Shown here: positions 16,796 through 31,851 of the stretch, one piece after another | Position numbering within the stretch: position 1 is the first letter of the stretch | How the letters are laid out: every line of letters begins with the position of its first letter | Translations under genes and position numbers: made by a program | Notes under the pieces: model-generated | The model's input: only the letters and a program-made list of their open reading frames with translations | What the model was told of the DNA's origin: nothing | The model's database searches: none | Source: a virus | Length of the DNA: 31,851 nt | IMG/VR virus record: IMGVR_UViG_3300030618_000054 | Location: 1-31,851 of that record | Reading direction: 5' to 3' (one strand)

Positions 16796-18670
16796 ATGCC
16801 TGAGATCGATAACACAGGGCCGATAAACCCTACTATAGATAGTACGGGCCGGCCCACCACGGGCACTAAGCCAGCGCCCCCTGAACGCGGCCCGCTGGAC
16901 TTTGACGCACTCGGCGCGAAAGCATACCAGGCGCTAACCTTCGGGTTCGGCGCGGATCTGGATAGAGCGATTTTCGGCAAGCAAGCGGAGCAGACGACGC
17001 GCCAGCTTGTGAAAGACTACGACCACGACAACCCCATGTCCTCGGCGGGCATCGACTTGGCGGCGGCGGTTATTCAGACTGCGGCACTACCTGGCAGTGG
17101 CACGGCGGGGTTAGAAGGCACTGTAGGTCGGATAGCTACTCGTGTCGCCGGAAACACAGCCGGTCGCATTGCGGCAAACGTAGCTGGTACGACGGGGCGC
17201 TTGGCGACCAGCGGTGCGGGTATCGGCGCGCTACAAGGTTTCGGTTCGGGCGGAAGCATAGACGAGCGCGCGACGAGCGCGGCCAAGGGCGCGGCGGTTG
17301 GTGGTGTAATAGGCGCCGGCGCGAACTTTCTCGGTAAGGTAGCGCGCCCCGCCCTGGAAAAGACCGGTGTGCTCGACGCCGCGAAAGGCGCGTTCGATAA
17401 GGTACAAGCCGCGCTGAAGGGTGACGGCAAGTCGATGGCGGACTTGCAGAATTTCCTGAAAGCAAACCCTGGAGCGCGCGCAGCGGACTTCTCGCCCAAA
17501 GTGGCCGAAGCTGTCGCCAAGGCAGGCGGCGTAAGCAACAAGACAAGCGAAACTCTGGGAACTGCCAACCGCGCCGACGCAGCGGGGCAAACCGCTCGTG
17601 TTAGCGGCGGCGTCGCGCAGGGGCAACCGCTCGCTAAGCTGAAGCAACAAATGATTGACGACTTGAGCGACCTTCAGAACAAACGCCAATCGGCGTACAC
17701 AACCGCGAAAACCGAATCGAATCCGGTTACGCCGGAACTGCAAGACGCGCTCAGCCACCCCGAAGTGCAACCCTTGCTCAAGAAAGCGGTTGACGACTTC
17801 AACGCGGGTAAATCTGCCGGCGTGTCGGACTTGCAAGGCGCACCGAAAATCAAGATCCGCGACGGCAAGTTGTCCGCGCTACCCTCCGCACTCCTCGATG
17901 ACTTGCAAAAGTCAGTCGGCAAGGCTGCGCAGGAAGAGGGCGTCGGTTCGACGCGCTACGGTACGCTGTCGGCGCTTCAGCGCACATTAAAGGATCAGCA
18001 GACTGGCTCGATCAAGGACGCGCAGCAACTGGCAGCACGAGTCGGCGGCGAGCAATCCGGAACGGGTATCCTGGGGGCGCAAGAATTCGGTCACGCGTTC
18101 GCGTTCGGCTTGAAAAAAGCCGACACTGCGGCGTGGGACAAGATCAAGAACGACCCGGAACAGGTTCAGTACGCGCGTCTAGGCATGCTCAACGGGCTGG
18201 ACGAATACCTGACGAACGCCGGTCGAATGACGGAAGGCGCGCTCACCAAGATCGCAGACAAGATGCGCGATCCGCAAGTCGTGCAAGTGCTCGGCGCCAA
18301 GGGAGCGAGCGATGTGCGCAAGGTGTTCTCAGACGAAGCGGCCCGCCAGCGGGTGTCCGCGACGATGGAGCGCGGCGGGAGTCACCAGGCCGCGTTCCAC
18401 GACGAGAACCAATCGCGCATGGCGTCCCACGCGGCCAACGTCATTGGCGGTATGGGCCACGTAGCAGGAACCGCTGTTCGTTTCCTGACCGGAACGGGCA
18501 TGTCCGAGAAGCAAGCCGTGAACATCATCAAGATGGCGGCGCAACCGGGCGGGCTCGCAAAGATCAAGGCGATGGGGGCTCCCAAGAAAGTCATGGAAGC
18601 ACTTTACAAGCAGCGCAGCGGTATCGCGGGCGGCGCAGCGGAAGCGACCGACATCAAGGGCCAACGTTAG
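16796..18670 (+). CDS. Large internal virion/ejection protein with Gly-zipper region
   Basis: A 624-aa protein beginning directly after the preceding stop. The N-terminus is Pro/Thr-rich, then residues 80-190 form an Ala/Gly-rich Gly-zipper-like hydrophobic region (RIATRVAGNTAGRIAANVAG... AAVGGVIGAGANFLG) that could insert in membranes, followed by a long Lys/Ala/Gln helical region. It occupies the place of P22 gp16, the last ejection protein. Its TAG stop overlaps the stop of the opposing 18-aa peptide gene. Confidence 0.65.
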   Translation: MPEIDNTGPINPTIDSTGRPTTGTKPAPPERGPLDFDALGAKAYQALTFGFGADLDRAIFGKQAEQTTRQLVKDYDHDNPMSSAGIDLAAAVIQTAALPGSGTAGLEGTVGRIATRVAGNTAGRIAANVAGTTGRLATSGAGIGALQGFGSGGSIDERATSAAKGAAVGGVIGAGANFLGKVARPALEKTGVLDAAKGAFDKVQAALKGDGKSMADLQNFLKANPGARAADFSPKVAEAVAKAGGVSNKTSETLGTANRADAAGQTARVSGGVAQGQPLAKLKQQMIDDLSDLQNKRQSAYTTAKTESNPVTPELQDALSHPEVQPLLKKAVDDFNAGKSAGVSDLQGAPKIKIRDGKLSALPSALLDDLQKSVGKAAQEEGVGSTRYGTLSALQRTLKDQQTGSIKDAQQLAARVGGEQSGTGILGAQEFGHAFAFGLKKADTAAWDKIKNDPEQVQYARLGMLNGLDEYLTNAGRMTEGALTKIADKMRDPQVVQVLGAKGASDVRKVFSDEAARQRVSATMERGGSHQAAFHDENQSRMASHAANVIGGMGHVAGTAVRFLTGTGMSEKQAVNIIKMAAQPGGLAKIKAMGAPKKVMEALYKQRSGIAGGAAEATDIKGQR

Positions 18671-18723
18671 AAGTCTTGATAGGCGGCTACAACAAGAAAC
18701 AGGACGATCAGAAAGACTATCAT
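18667..18723 (-). CDS. 18-aa hydrophobic membrane microprotein
   Basis: An 18-residue peptide, MIVFLIVLFLVVAAYQDF, made of one short hydrophobic span and a polar tail. The ATG overlaps the stop of the upstream secreted-protein gene (TAATG on the minus strand), which suggests translational coupling. Its stop overlaps the stop of the opposing 624-aa gene. Family and function unknown; too short for homology. A spurious ORF is possible, but the overlap and membrane-peptide composition fit the cassette. Confidence 0.55.
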   Translation of the reverse strand: MIVFLIVLFLVVAAYQDF

Positions 18724-19028
18724 TACAGTGCTCCTTTGGTGGATGCTTTTGCAGTAGCGGTAAAACTGGAAGTGGCGTAGTCTAATTCCGCTCCGTCCTC
18801 GAACACGACGTGCAAGGTTTTGAAGTTGTCTGGGGTTTGCGTGACGCACCCGCGAATCGTGGACTTGAAAGGGATGTTGACGATAACCTCCAGGCCCGAT
18901 CGGCATTCCGATACGCCGGCCATCAACAGGTTAGCGCCACCGGAGTAGTTAGTCGCCGTACCCATAACCCAGGGGGCGGCAAAAGACGAAAGCGGGGCGG
19001 CGAGAAGCAAGGCAAGAATGAGTTTCAT
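18723..19028 (-). CDS. Secreted/periplasmic 101-aa protein of unknown family
   Basis: A 101-aa protein with a clear signal peptide: MKLILALLLAAPLSSFA, cleaved after about residue 17 (S-F-A). The mature part has two cysteines (Cys42 and Cys61) that could form a disulfide, and a Ser/Thr-rich C-terminus. It starts at ATG 19028 behind AAAGGATACCGTC. It is on the minus strand, antisense to the late operon, with its own extended -10 promoter at 19127. A microprotein gene lies on each side. Not recognised; a periplasmic protein that could alter host receptor, or block ejection of superinfecting phage, is an inference. Confidence 0.75.
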   Translation of the reverse strand: MKLILALLLAAPLSSFAAPWVMGTATNYSGGANLLMAGVSECRSGLEVIVNIPFKSTIRGCVTQTPDNFKTLHVVFEDGAELDYATSSFTATAKASTKGAL

Positions 19029-19039
19029 GACGGTATCCT

Positions 19040-19099
19040 TTAAACGCCAAGCAACGTGCAAAGAATCAGAAACAGCAGGAAAGCGATAAGAAATAACAT
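19040..19099 (-). CDS. 19-aa hydrophobic membrane microprotein
   Basis: A 19-residue peptide, MLFLIAFLLFLILCTLLGV, forming one hydrophobic span. The ATG follows ACGGAGATCACCATC, a good ribosome site, and is the first gene after the promoter at 19127. Its stop is 11 nt before the start of the secreted protein gene. It could act as a membrane peptide or a translational leader. Short length limits certainty. Confidence 0.55.
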   Translation of the reverse strand: MLFLIAFLLFLILCTLLGV

Positions 19100-19120
19100 G
19101 ATGGTGATCTCCGTTTGAAT

Positions 19121-19163
19121 GAATTCACTATAGCAGTTGCGCAATGGAATAGCAAATGAAAAT
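19121..19163 (-). promoter_or_regulatory. Extended -10 promoter P1 (antisense cassette)
   Basis: On the minus strand: -35 TTGCTA, 17-base spacer ending in TTGCGCAACTGC, then -10 TATAGT (19127-19132) with a TGC extension. The downstream sequence continues GAATTCA, shared with promoter P3. The spacer holds the dyad GCA-AC-TGC present in all four copies. It reads into the 19-aa, 101-aa and 18-aa genes. Confidence 0.75.
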
Positions 19164-20469
19164 TTTAGCCGTGGACTGTATCGGCGGGATGCTCGACTGG
19201 GCGATGCGATGCGTCGATGTCGGTCACGACGTGCGCTTGTGGGTGAAGCCCCGTGACGGCGAGCGGCGCAACCCGACGGGCGACGGCCTGGTCCCGCGCG
19301 TCGCGGACTGGAAAGCCTCGATGGCTTGGGCGGACCTTATCGTACTGTCGGATAACGCGAACCTGATGGACGAGATGGAGCCTTACCGCAAGAAAGGCTA
19401 TCCGATCTTCGGGCCGAACAAAGCCGGCGCGGAAGTTGAGCTGAACCGCCAGCTCGGGCAAGACCTGTTCAAGAAAGTCGGCATCAAAACGATGCCGTCC
19501 GTTGCGTTTTCCGACTACGACGCCGCGAAAAAGCACGTCAAAAAGACAATGGAGCGCTTCGTATCGAAGCCCAATGGCGATGCCGACAAGGCCCTGTCCT
19601 ACGTGTCGAAGTCGCCGCGCGACATGGTGGGGATGCTGGACCGCTGGAAAGTCGAGAACCCGCAGACGCAGGGGTTCATCCTCCAGCCATTCGTTCGCGG
19701 TATCGAGATGGCGATTGGCGGGTGGTTCGGCAAAAACGGCTGGTCGCAATGGTTCCTGGAAAACATCGAACACAAGAAACACCTCCCTGGCGACACCGGC
19801 GTCAACACGGGCGAGCAAGGCACTGTCATGAGGTACGTGAAGGAGTCGAAGCTCGTCGACAAGCTGCTAACCCCGCTAACGAGCTACCTGCACTCGATCA
19901 ACTTTCGCGGCTACTTCGACATGGCCGCGATCATCGACGAAGACGGCACGCCGTGGCCTCTGGAAGCCACATCCCGCCCCGGCTGGCCGTGCTTCATTAT
20001 CCAGTGCGCGTTGCACGTAGGCGACCCGGCGCAGTGGATGCTTGACCTTCTGCACGGTGAAGACACGCTCGAAGTGCTCGACGAAACAGCGGTCGGTGTC
20101 GTCGTGTCCATCCCCGACTACCCGTTCACGCAGTACACCAAGCGTAACTGCACAGGCTATCCGATCTACAACACCGAACGTCTGGTTTGCGAAGATATTC
20201 ACTTCTGCGAAGTGATGCTAGGCGATGTGCCGGACGAAGAAGATGACAAGATCGTCTATAAGAAAGGCCCGGTCACGTGCGGCGATTACGTGTTGGTCGC
20301 GACCGGGACGGACTTCGACATCCACGGGGCGCAGAAACGCGCGAAGCGCGCGCTGAAGACGATCGAAATCCCGAACTCCCCCGGCTGGCGCGACGACATT
20401 GGTGAAAAGCTGGAACGCGACTTGCCCGTGCTTCAGGATCTCGGCTACGCGCTGGAGTGGCACTACTGA
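19156..20469 (+). CDS. PurD-like ATP-grasp ligase
   Basis: A 437-aa protein of about the length of PurD (GAR synthetase). The N-terminal part has a Rossmann-like start and ...GYPIFGPNKAGAEVELNRQ..., the middle has the ATP-grasp region with MERFVSKPNGDADKAL, and later NFRGYFDMAAIIDEDGTPWPLEAT resembles the metal-binding Glu/Asn region. PurD couples ATP hydrolysis to amide bond formation between phosphoribosylamine and glycine. In a late phage operon, next to fibre-type and lysis genes, another ligase substrate is also possible. Start ATG 19156 has a weak GGAA upstream. It ends overlapping the next gene (TGATG). Confidence 0.65.
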   Translation: MKILAVDCIGGMLDWAMRCVDVGHDVRLWVKPRDGERRNPTGDGLVPRVADWKASMAWADLIVLSDNANLMDEMEPYRKKGYPIFGPNKAGAEVELNRQLGQDLFKKVGIKTMPSVAFSDYDAAKKHVKKTMERFVSKPNGDADKALSYVSKSPRDMVGMLDRWKVENPQTQGFILQPFVRGIEMAIGGWFGKNGWSQWFLENIEHKKHLPGDTGVNTGEQGTVMRYVKESKLVDKLLTPLTSYLHSINFRGYFDMAAIIDEDGTPWPLEATSRPGWPCFIIQCALHVGDPAQWMLDLLHGEDTLEVLDETAVGVVVSIPDYPFTQYTKRNCTGYPIYNTERLVCEDIHFCEVMLGDVPDEEDDKIVYKKGPVTCGDYVLVATGTDFDIHGAQKRAKRALKTIEIPNSPGWRDDIGEKLERDLPVLQDLGYALEWHY

Positions 20470-20764: not shown

Positions 20765-21088
20765 ATGGAGATAGAAAAAATCGTCGCTGCAATCCAATCA
20801 ATAAAAGTCGATTTGGATCAGCGTCACGAGGAAAACGCTACTCAGGCGAAGATCACGGAGTACAAGGTCGATGCTGCGATACGGGGTATCGACGAGCTAC
20901 GAACAGCCTTCCCGGAGGGTGACCTGAACGCCCACCGTCGCGAGCACGAGGCGGTTATCCACCGGACGGAAGCACGCGCTCGGCTCTACGAGGCGCTGCT
21001 TACCGAAGTAACGACTAAAGGGCTATGGGCGTTACTGGTGTTCGTGGGCGCCGCCGTTGTCTATTACGTGAGGGGCAAATTCTTATGA
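20765..21088 (+). CDS. C-terminally anchored membrane protein in the lysis region
   Basis: A 107-aa protein: an amphipathic helical N-terminal three quarters with charged repeats, and one transmembrane segment at the C-terminus (GLWALLVFVGAAVVYYV, residues about 86-102) followed by Arg-Gly-Lys. It sits directly before the endolysin, overlapping by ATGA. Candidate lysis accessory, holin-related or anchored regulatory protein; a single TM span and position are the only evidence. Confidence 0.6.
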   Translation: MEIEKIVAAIQSIKVDLDQRHEENATQAKITEYKVDAAIRGIDELRTAFPEGDLNAHRREHEAVIHRTEARARLYEALLTEVTTKGLWALLVFVGAAVVYYVRGKFL

Positions 21089-21516
21089 ACGAGAATCTCA
21101 GCTATACAGGGCAGAAGCTCACCGAAGAGTTCGAAGGCTGTTCACTGGTGCCCTACCAAGACTCGGCGGGGATCTGGACTGACGGTTACGGCAACACGCA
21201 TAACGTGATTCCCGGCATGCCGATCACGCAAGCGCAAGCCGAACTCGATCTCAACCGAAACATCGCGTGGGCGGTAATCTGCGTACAAAATTCGGTGACG
21301 ATCGCCCTGACCCAAGGTGAGTTCAACGCGTTGGTCGATTTCGTGTTCAACATCGGCAGCGGCAACTTTGCAAAGTCTACCTTGCTGGCGGACCTGAACG
21401 ACGGCAAGGTCGAGGAAGCCGCGCAGCAATTCACGCTTTGGGATTTGGCTGGCGGTAACGTGGTGGCGGGGCTCCTACGTCGGCGGATCGCGGAGCGGGG
21501 TGAATTCAATGAATGA
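21085..21516 (+). CDS. Endolysin, T4-type lysozyme (GH24)
   Basis: A 143-aa protein with the T4-lysozyme catalytic triad at matching spacing: Glu17 (EFEG), Asp26 (YQD) and Thr32 (GIWTDGYGNT). The next domain motifs NALVDFVFNIGSGNFAKSTLL and QFTLWDLAGG...GLLRRR match GH24. It hydrolyses beta-1,4 bonds of peptidoglycan for lysis. No signal peptide or SAR segment, so a holin is needed for release. The usual GYGHT is GYGNT here. Start at ATG 21085, one base after the upstream overlap. Confidence 0.9.
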   Translation: MNENLSYTGQKLTEEFEGCSLVPYQDSAGIWTDGYGNTHNVIPGMPITQAQAELDLNRNIAWAVICVQNSVTIALTQGEFNALVDFVFNIGSGNFAKSTLLADLNDGKVEEAAQQFTLWDLAGGNVVAGLLRRRIAERGEFNE

Positions 21517-22060: not shown

Positions 22061-22543
22061 ATGGCTGAAATCGTTCTGCAATTCGTCGAGGGATCGGGGT
22101 TCAGTTCGGCCCTGATCAAATGGTTCGGCAGCGGCCTGTACTCGCACGTCGATACGGTCTTGCCGGACGGTACACTGCTCGGCGCGCGGAACGATGTCAT
22201 TCAAGGGATACCGGCCGGGGTTCAGATCCGGCCGGCGAACTACATTCAGAATGAAGCCATGCACCGCATCTCGTTGAACGTGAGCGACGAGATGTGGGAC
22301 GAGTACTACGGCTTCCTGCTCGACCAGATTGGCAAGCCTTACAACCGGCTCGGTATCTTCGCGTTTTTCATCAACGCGGAGTGGTCGGACATCGCGGCCT
22401 GGTTCTGCTCGCAACTGGTAACAGCGGCGCTGCAAGACTGCCAGTGGATGCCAGAACTCAGCCAACCGGCGAGCAAGATCGACCCTGACCGGCTGTTTCT
22501 GCTGATTTCCGCGCTGACTAGTCAAAGCCGCCTATATCGATAA
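22061..22543 (+). CDS. Permuted NlpC/P60 (YiiX-like) cysteine hydrolase
   Basis: A 160-aa protein with the circularly permuted papain-like order: His29 in YSHVDTVLPDGTLLGAR precedes Cys116 in WFCSQLV, with GKPYNRLGIFAFF between. This fits the YaeF/YiiX branch of NlpC/P60, which hydrolyses amide or ester bonds of lipids or peptides. No signal peptide. It ends the late operon, converging on a minus-strand gene with a 26-base overlap. Role may be lysis, envelope or peptidoglycan processing; the substrate is unknown. Confidence 0.72.
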   Translation: MAEIVLQFVEGSGFSSALIKWFGSGLYSHVDTVLPDGTLLGARNDVIQGIPAGVQIRPANYIQNEAMHRISLNVSDEMWDEYYGFLLDQIGKPYNRLGIFAFFINAEWSDIAAWFCSQLVTAALQDCQWMPELSQPASKIDPDRLFLLISALTSQSRLYR

Positions 22544-22674: not shown

Positions 22675-23325
22675 TCAAAACCTGTAAGTAAGGGTGACCA
22701 TCTGAACTCCGGTAGCGATACCCGGAACCGGGCTCCATAGCGGACGCATCTTGTAGTAACGGTACGATACCGATACGTTCTTGTATTCGATCGAAGCTCC
22801 GACTACCGGCGCGAACTGTACTTTGGTCTGATGGTTCAGGCTTTCCGTGACGCCGCCCGTTTCTGCCGTCTGGTGCCACGTAGCCCAGTAGGCCCAGTAC
22901 CCCGCTTCCAAGCCGAATTCGACACCGCGCCACGCGTAGGTCGGCTGGAGCGTGAGCGCAATCCCCTGCGTATGCCCTTGGCCGTTGAAGTACGAATACG
23001 TAGACTGCCGCTGCAAAACTTGATGCCGAACCGGATTGTAGTTAGCGTCGGGCACAGCGTCCGTCGAAGCCTCCTGCCGGCCCATGTAGACGTAGTCAGC
23101 GTGGTAGCGAATTGACCAGTTGCCGCGTTCGTACAGCGAGCCTGTGAGCCCGCCCATGAAGCCGATGTTCGTTAAAGACTCACTGTTGTCCAAGCCCTTC
23201 TGAACCCACACCCCGTCACCCATGTCGCGAGTCTTCGCGACGCCTACGCCTGCTTCAAGTTCGAAGAATGATTGGGCGTGAGCAACTAGCGGAGCCAACG
23301 CCAAAAGGACTACTAATGTTTTCAC
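22675..23325 (-). CDS. Outer-membrane beta-barrel-like protein
   Basis: A 216-aa protein with a signal peptide MKTLVVLLALAPLVAHA cut at the A-H-A site, then alternating hydrophobic/aromatic strands (SFFELEAGVGVAK, WSIRYHADYVYMG, FGLEAGYWAYWATWH, VSVSYRYYKMRP) and a C-terminal Tyr-Arg-Phe, the signature used for BAM-mediated outer-membrane insertion. GTG start at 23325 follows GAGGGGATCAAA; the GTG at 23358 lies on the promoter. Reads away from promoter P2. Likely sits in the outer membrane; phage outer-membrane proteins often block or modify receptors. Alternative is a porin-like moron. Confidence 0.78.
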   Translation of the reverse strand: MKTLVVLLALAPLVAHAQSFFELEAGVGVAKTRDMGDGVWVQKGLDNSESLTNIGFMGGLTGSLYERGNWSIRYHADYVYMGRQEASTDAVPDANYNPVRHQVLQRQSTYSYFNGQGHTQGIALTLQPTYAWRGVEFGLEAGYWAYWATWHQTAETGGVTESLNHQTKVQFAPVVGASIEYKNVSVSYRYYKMRPLWSPVPGIATGVQMVTLTYRF

Positions 23326-23354
23326 TTTGATCCCCTCGTTTGGTTTGTGTGGCT

Positions 23355-23385
23355 CCACTATAGCAGTTGCAAAACGGAAATCAAG
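23355..23385 (-). promoter_or_regulatory. Extended -10 promoter P2 (outer-membrane cassette)
   Basis: On the minus strand: -35 TTGATT, 16-base spacer ending in TTTTGCAACTGC, then -10 TATAGT (23357-23362) with a TGC extension. The 20-base core is identical to promoter P3. It lies 30 bases before the outer-membrane protein start. Confidence 0.78.
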
Positions 23386-31205: not shown

Positions 31206-31234
31206 AATTTAGGCGCGAAAAATCGACGTGTCAA
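31206..31234 (-). promoter_or_regulatory. Consensus sigma70 promoter for the replication operon
   Basis: On the minus strand: -35 TTGACA (31229-31234, perfect consensus), 17-base spacer, -10 TAAATT (31206-31211, 4 of 6). It lies 32 bases before the first operon gene and back to back with promoter P4, making a divergent early control region. Confidence 0.75.
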
Positions 31235-31248
31235 GAAATATTTTGCAT

Positions 31249-31277
31249 TTGCATTTTTGTTTTGCAGTTGCTATAGT
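31249..31277 (+). promoter_or_regulatory. Extended -10 promoter P4 (rightward)
   Basis: -35 TTGCAT, 17-base spacer holding TTTTGCAGTTGC, then -10 TATAGT (31272-31277) with TGC extension. The dyad is GCA-GT-TGC, the inverse of the GCA-AC-TGC in P1-P3. Reads into the SAAR-repeat gene. Confidence 0.75.
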
Positions 31278-31308
31278 TTGCAGCACACTAACCCCGAGGA
31301 GAAAACAG

Positions 31309-31851
31309 ATGAAAGCATTTCACGGTGACCCGGCAGTAAAAGAGAAATACCTGGCGCGACTCAAGGCGCATCACGCGGCGGACGAGATTGTGCAAGGAAC
31401 AGGTTTTGAAAACGGTCACGGTTGCGCGGTTGGTTGCACGCTCAATAACTACGACCACTTGGCTTACGAGCACGAACTGGGTTTGCCGGAATGGTTGGCG
31501 CGGCTTGAGGATCGGATTTTCGAAGGGCTGCCGCCTGTCGATGCGCAGCGGTTCGCGGTTGATTTCCTGGGGGCGGTTCCGGTCGGGGCAGACGTCGATA
31601 AGGTGCGGTGGCGTCTCGCAGTGCAACGGCATACGCGAGACCGCGACCGGTTGCTATCGAACAAAGAACCGTATGCGGGGCAGTGCGTTGCCGCTATCGA
31701 TCAAGTAATCGCGTACTGCGAATCTGAAATTAGTGGATCGGCGGAGTCGGCGGCGCGGTCGGCGGCGCGGTCGGCGGCGCGGTCGGCGGCGTGGTCGGCG
31801 CGGTTGGCGGAGTCGGCGGCGCGGTCGGCGGCGCGGTCGGCGGCGTGGTCG
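31309..31851 (+). CDS. SAAR-repeat protein of unknown function, 3' partial
   Basis: An open reading frame from ATG 31309 (after CGAGGAGAAAAC) that is still open at the window end, so at least 181 residues. The N-terminal 140 residues are a charged, mostly helical domain with Cys pairs (HGCAVGCTLNNYDHLAYE), similar to a conserved domain in some phage proteins that end in Ala-rich repeats. From residue about 145 it is a repeat of SAAR and SAAW tetrapeptides, with a SARLAE interruption, so probably a long helix. Function unknown. First gene after the rightward promoter P4. Confidence 0.75.
   Translation, partial: MKAFHGDPAVKEKYLARLKAHHAADEIVQGTGFENGHGCAVGCTLNNYDHLAYEHELGLPEWLARLEDRIFEGLPPVDAQRFAVDFLGAVPVGADVDKVRWRLAVQRHTRDRDRLLSNKEPYAGQCVAAIDQVIAYCESEISGSAESAARSAARSAARSAAWSARLAESAARSAARSAAWS
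31741..31851 (+). repeat. 12-bp tandem repeats encoding SAAR/SAAW
   Basis: In-frame 12-bp units of GCGGCGCGGTCG or GCGGCGTGGTCG repeated in two blocks separated by a short GCGCGGTTGGCGGAGTCG spacer, forming a higher-order repeat of about 50 bp. Cut by the window end. Encodes the Ala-rich helix of the partial gene. Confidence 0.9.

Follow-up and report, generated by a model that had tools for sequence, protein, structure and literature searches.

A putative early, exchangeable envelope cassette in an uncultivated phage, possibly serving superinfection exclusion

Superinfection exclusion is served by two early exported phage proteins whose role has been tested, Spackle of phage T4, a periplasmic lysozyme inhibitor (PMC7677548), and Llp of phage T5 (PMC9586334). 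Phage morons and accessory hot spots combine a promoter of their own and a fixed site with variable content, which often consists of envelope proteins. The locus described here has features in common with both groups. It lies in a 31.8-kb viral contig, the whole length of which is referred to as the window; our analysis is based on sequence, and the records of the relatives are metagenomic fragments.

Plus-strand structural genes extend from base 29 to approximately position 22,500 of the window, and minus-strand replication genes from position 31,234 down to approximately 22,700. Genes for the portal, capsid, head closure, and endolysin were identified, along with those for an SLT virion protein (g698), an SNF2 helicase, a family-A DNA polymerase, and a DUF2800 nuclease. 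Scans with Rfam and for tRNAs gave no matches in the window. The cassette is located on the minus strand and is embedded in the plus-strand late block (Table 1). A preliminary description had placed a promoter and three ORFs there, and their coordinates hold, as does the reported overlap of the 18-aa start with the preceding stop, in which the TAA of the 101-aa gene and the ATG have one base in common (TAATG). All three ORFs are preceded by a Shine-Dalgarno (SD) sequence. When the whole window was scanned for SD-preceded ATG ORFs of 15–32 aa with a mean hydropathy of at least 2.0, exactly two were retrieved, the 19-aa and 18-aa ORFs of the cassette, and 60 first-order Markov resamplings of the window yielded none. 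The gap occupied by the cassette contains no terminator-like site; the nearest candidates are inside g624 and are no commoner than in shuffled sequences.

Table 1. Positions of the cassette elements, the bordering genes, and other features of the window
Feature	Position	Strand	Remarks
Predicted promoter	19127–19155	minus	TTGCTA, 17-nt spacer containing GCGCAACTGC, TATAGT; extended TGC; motif as at early genes
19-aa hydrophobic microORF, MLFLIAFLLFLILCTLLGV	19040–19099	minus	CGGAG upstream; private to the window phage
101-aa exported protein gene	18723–19028	minus	AAAGGA upstream; predicted signal peptide; all six members share Cys42 and Cys61
18-aa hydrophobic microORF, MIVFLIVLFLVVAAYQDF	18667–18723	minus	AAAGGAG upstream; start overlaps 101-aa stop, own stop overlaps end of g624; place and character conserved in relatives
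g624, conserved virion-side gene	16796–18670	plus	Hot-spot border; convergent to the cassette, stops overlap
ATP-grasp/PurD-like gene	19156–20469	plus	Other hot-spot border; divergent from the cassette
Lysozyme-type endolysin gene	21088–21516		
Barrel-like exported protein gene	22675–23365	minus	Approximately 217 aa
Motif site	23357	minus	Before the barrel-like exported protein gene
Motif site	26186	minus	Before an early gene
Motif site	31277	plus	Before the rightward right-end gene
Tandem motif copies	31239–31277	plus	TTTTGCAxTTGC repeats in the rightward early promoter
Right-end gene	31300–31851	plus	Begins MKAFHG; long SAARSAAR... low-complexity repeat runs off the contig end

Four copies of the string TGCTATANT were counted in the window, against an expectation of 0.17. 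A promoter weight matrix was built from eight sites, the cassette promoters of the window phage and its relatives, so that the cassette site of the window was part of the training set and the other three window sites were left out. In a scan of the window this matrix found four sites at 27.7–30.0 bits, located before the cassette and before the three other genes listed in Table 1; the next-best sites scored 16.9 bits (overlapping one of the top four) and approximately 12 bits. The same motif was found at early genes of relatives, at all six exported-protein cassettes, and in other occupied slots of the kinds described below, with only a weak match in G008. The cassette promoter motif is phage-specific, and the earlier claim that the cassette shares its promoter with early genes stands in the form of a shared motif. 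The rightward early promoter has a second, overlapping motif copy in tandem, which is also present at the same place in three relatives (L033, L049, and L052), and the motif spacer is conserved, as if bound by a regulator. The barrel-like protein, with its own early motif copy, ends in TLTYRF, which resembles an outer-membrane beta-signal; its relatives share 25–52% identity, and it has no family match.

Relatives were gathered from IMG/VR through ATP-grasp and capsid searches. In those examined, the gene order g698, g624, ATP-grasp, and downstream genes is kept, and the content of the gap between g624 and the ATP-grasp gene varies. The window, G001, G002, G003, L053, and L061 have the exported protein with a terminal microORF. 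In G004 and G005 the slot is taken by a 95-aa membrane protein with an HNH endonuclease next to it. G006, L054, L063, and L085 have a 76-aa membrane protein of one kind, which in L063 and L085 precedes a hydrophobic microORF of 16 aa. G007 has just a hydrophobic peptide of 24 aa, and G008 (L044:5606–6421) a pentapeptide-repeat protein. The slot is empty (78 bp) in G009, and the two flanking genes of several remoter relatives overlap each other by approximately 4 bases. Judged by these contents, the gap is a hot spot for insertions, bordered on each side by a conserved late gene. Presence or absence at a fixed site among close relatives is a feature shared with morons, as is a promoter of its own, recognized here by motif, and the variable content is what would be expected of the phage-carried accessory trait proposed in the preliminary description. 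The ATP-grasp gene at the border, which is in the late block ahead of the lysis genes, is kept in every relative examined (37–89% identity) and encodes a PurD-related protein (NCBIfam TIGR00877, E = 5.4e-21, below its cut-off; Pfam GARS_A). In L049 and L036 the HNH endonuclease gene in the hot spot adjoins the gene of the 95-aa membrane protein, and the endonuclease may drive cassette exchange.

The 101-aa protein is carried by five related contigs at 41–45% identity. Its lineages are few, with three main types among six contigs, and the proteins are 41–47% identical between these types, compared with 86–100% for the ATP-grasp protein. The dN/dS ratios of 0.08 (L053–L061) and 0.24 (G002–G003) indicate that the gene is under purifying selection. 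Between G002 and G003 its dS is 0.87, approximately twice that of the two neighboring genes (0.48 and 0.46), a difference that speaks for local allele exchange more than for positive selection. No relative beyond the six loci was found by tblastn against INPHARED or in IMG/VR or GTDB genomes, and there is no paralogue elsewhere in the same phages. The protein has no sequence-family match in Pfam, PHROG, NCBIfam, PADLOC, or the PDB, which agrees with the earlier impression that the gene set is undescribed; the Pfam searches extended to E values of 10 for four relatives and 0.1 for the window protein, limits at which a distant member could escape. Weak PHROG matches (E 0.2–0.4) were not accepted as a relationship.

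An A-x-A site closes each of the six predicted signal peptides, with no lipobox Cys after it, and the only Cys residues of the 101-aa protein are those at positions 42 and 61. A first structure model, calculated from four sequences with the signal peptide kept, was discarded (pLDDT 47). The AlphaFold model obtained from six sequences after removal of the signal peptide is of moderate confidence (pLDDT 66, pTM 0.51) and is all-beta, with six strands and a single short helical turn. Its best full-length matches in BFVD are uncharacterized phage proteins of 91–111 residues (E 0.007–0.07, probability 1.00, TM 0.6–0.7). One of these entries, from Erwinia phage phiEaP8 (probability 1.00, TM 0.66, E 0.07 by fold), appears to be AWN06258.1, which was picked from the annotated record by its length of 111 residues. 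This protein also has a signal peptide, a C...GC pair, and a similar length, and in a profile comparison, which was not significant, both Cys residues are in register. The model bears a weak resemblance to uncharacterized phage proteins, among them probably the exported two-Cys protein of phiEaP8. Structure comparison with the PDB gave nothing above Z 4.5; the top rows included the small envelope beta proteins PliC, NlpE, and Blc, but also unrelated Tudor domains. Foldseek matches in the PDB to Tudor, polo-box, and myosin SH3-like domains (E above 0.1) were treated as background. Known exclusion proteins showed no sequence match and no confident fold match to the exported protein.

In all six loci, the stop of the exported protein gene overlaps the start of a hydrophobic terminal microORF, through TAATG or TGATG in four of them and GTGA in L053 and L061; in the five relatives this microORF is 19–27 aa long. 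Two close pairs differ at 8 synonymous and 3 non-synonymous codons (P = 0.003; neutral expectation 72% non-synonymous). By these substitutions, the terminal microORF is a conserved coding sequence under purifying selection. None of the five relatives with the exported protein contains the 19-aa upstream ORF. In these relatives, the ribosome binding site after the promoter leads directly to the exported protein; in the window the same site serves the 19-aa ORF, and a new one farther on serves the exported protein. This difference in arrangement indicates that the 19-aa ORF is private to the window phage. The preliminary description is therefore to be amended: the three-part gene set is not conserved, and of the two microprotein frames it had proposed, the terminal one recurs in relatives and the upstream one does not. 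A common origin of the two by DNA similarity was unconvincing, with 0.04–0.08 of shuffles equally good.

The export signal, the two Cys residues, and the hydrophobic peptides suggest that the products of the cassette belong to the inner membrane and periplasm. A fixed slot in which the membrane and exported proteins vary points to an accessory role that changes with the host or competitor, and the cassette is probably a swappable tool that guards or alters the host envelope during infection. Exclusion is its most likely role, since it is the one served by Spackle and Llp; we hold the reading of an early, exchangeable envelope cassette for superinfection exclusion ahead of all others, at slightly short of even confidence. 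To judge from the promoter class, host RNA polymerase would read the cassette soon after infection. The 101-aa protein would reach the periplasm via Sec and fold there into a small beta structure that probably contains a disulfide, and the microprotein would reside in the inner membrane, its ratio to the 101-aa protein being fixed by stop-start coupling. A second phage would then most likely be excluded by interference with a receptor, with DNA passage, or with the wall-cutting protein of the incoming phage. The 19-aa peptide upstream would be a recent addition in the window phage.

Alternatively, but with a rather low probability, the exported protein could be a periplasmic inhibitor of peptidoglycan-cutting enzymes, Spackle-like in its job and perhaps PliC-like in shape, that guards against lysis from without, or against premature lysis, by binding to the phage lysozyme or to the transglycosylase of the virion. 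Candidate targets are encoded (g698 and the lysozyme-type endolysin), early inhibition of lysozyme in the periplasm has its precedent in Spackle, and the small beta model weakly matches PliC (Z 4.3, rmsd 3.1, 60 aligned residues). However, by the structure-comparison tool's own note a Z of 4.3 is background. Nor does the exported protein vary in step with g698 or g624: in G001 these two proteins are divergent (43–50% identity to the others), and the exported protein shares 66–71% identity with its counterparts in G002 and G003. This makes a dedicated inhibitor of either protein less likely.

Less probable again is a lysogenic-conversion or host-fitness gene that stems from a prophage or carrier state and alters the envelope to the host's benefit. 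The phage family can be temperate in part, as indicated by the integrases of two relatives, G007 and G009, and a separate promoter and accessory distribution are compatible with such a gene. However, no integrase was found in the window, G003–G006, or G008, no capsid relative turned up among the 84,980 genomes of bacteria and archaea that were searched for prophage copies, at the sensitivity used, and the promoter motif is common to lytic early genes. Behind this possibility we rank a T4 RI-like regulator of lysis timing, in which the exported protein and membrane microproteins would act on the holin or endolysin from the periplasm. The lysis genes are approximately 2 kb from the cassette, whose products are predicted to be exported or membrane-bound, but the cassette has an early-type promoter on the opposite strand, pointing away from those genes, and relatives whose lysis genes are of the same kind have an empty slot or one with other contents. 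Least probable of all is that the microORFs are untranslated and the 101-aa gene alone matters, the short hydrophobic frames being chance or leader sequences, as the non-conserved 19-aa ORF might suggest, in view of the invariant stop overlap, hydrophobicity, and synonymous excess of the terminal microORF and the occurrence of similar ones after the unrelated 76-aa gene and, in G007, alone.

The exclusion reading can be extended to a new kind of two-part system, in which a periplasmic beta protein works at a fixed ratio with an interchangeable membrane microprotein of <30 residues. The microprotein is viewed as an interchangeable partner because similar ones also occur after the unrelated 76-aa membrane protein and, in G007, one occurs by itself. 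We consider this extension unlikely, if less so than the alternatives above. If superinfection exclusion is the role of the cassette, one slot in an uncultivated phage family gathers small genes that act on the envelope and are driven by an early promoter, and it supplies a short list of exclusion candidates. There would then be evidence that phage membrane peptides of 16–27 residues, mostly missed by annotation, are genuine conserved genes.

Compared with known systems, the cassette resembles morons and accessory hot spots in its promoter, fixed site, and variable content of envelope-type proteins, and differs from them in the lack of a detectable terminator and in its stop-coupled membrane microproteins of <30 residues. 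PliC and MliC are small periplasmic beta proteins that the exported-protein model resembles weakly, at background level, and the Pfam searches, within the E limits given above, gave no match for the exported protein. Llp and Cor are, like it, small phage proteins of the periplasm or outer membrane region, and Llp has a disulfide; both are lipoproteins, whereas the six exported proteins lack the corresponding Cys. T4 Spackle (Sp, gp61.3) is an alpha-helical bundle (PMC7677548) with no sequence match to the exported protein, which is modelled as all-beta with moderate confidence. The two are nevertheless alike in their small size, two Cys residues, export signal, and early expression, the last two being predicted for the exported protein from its signal peptide and early-type promoter motif, and Spackle is its likely functional analogue.
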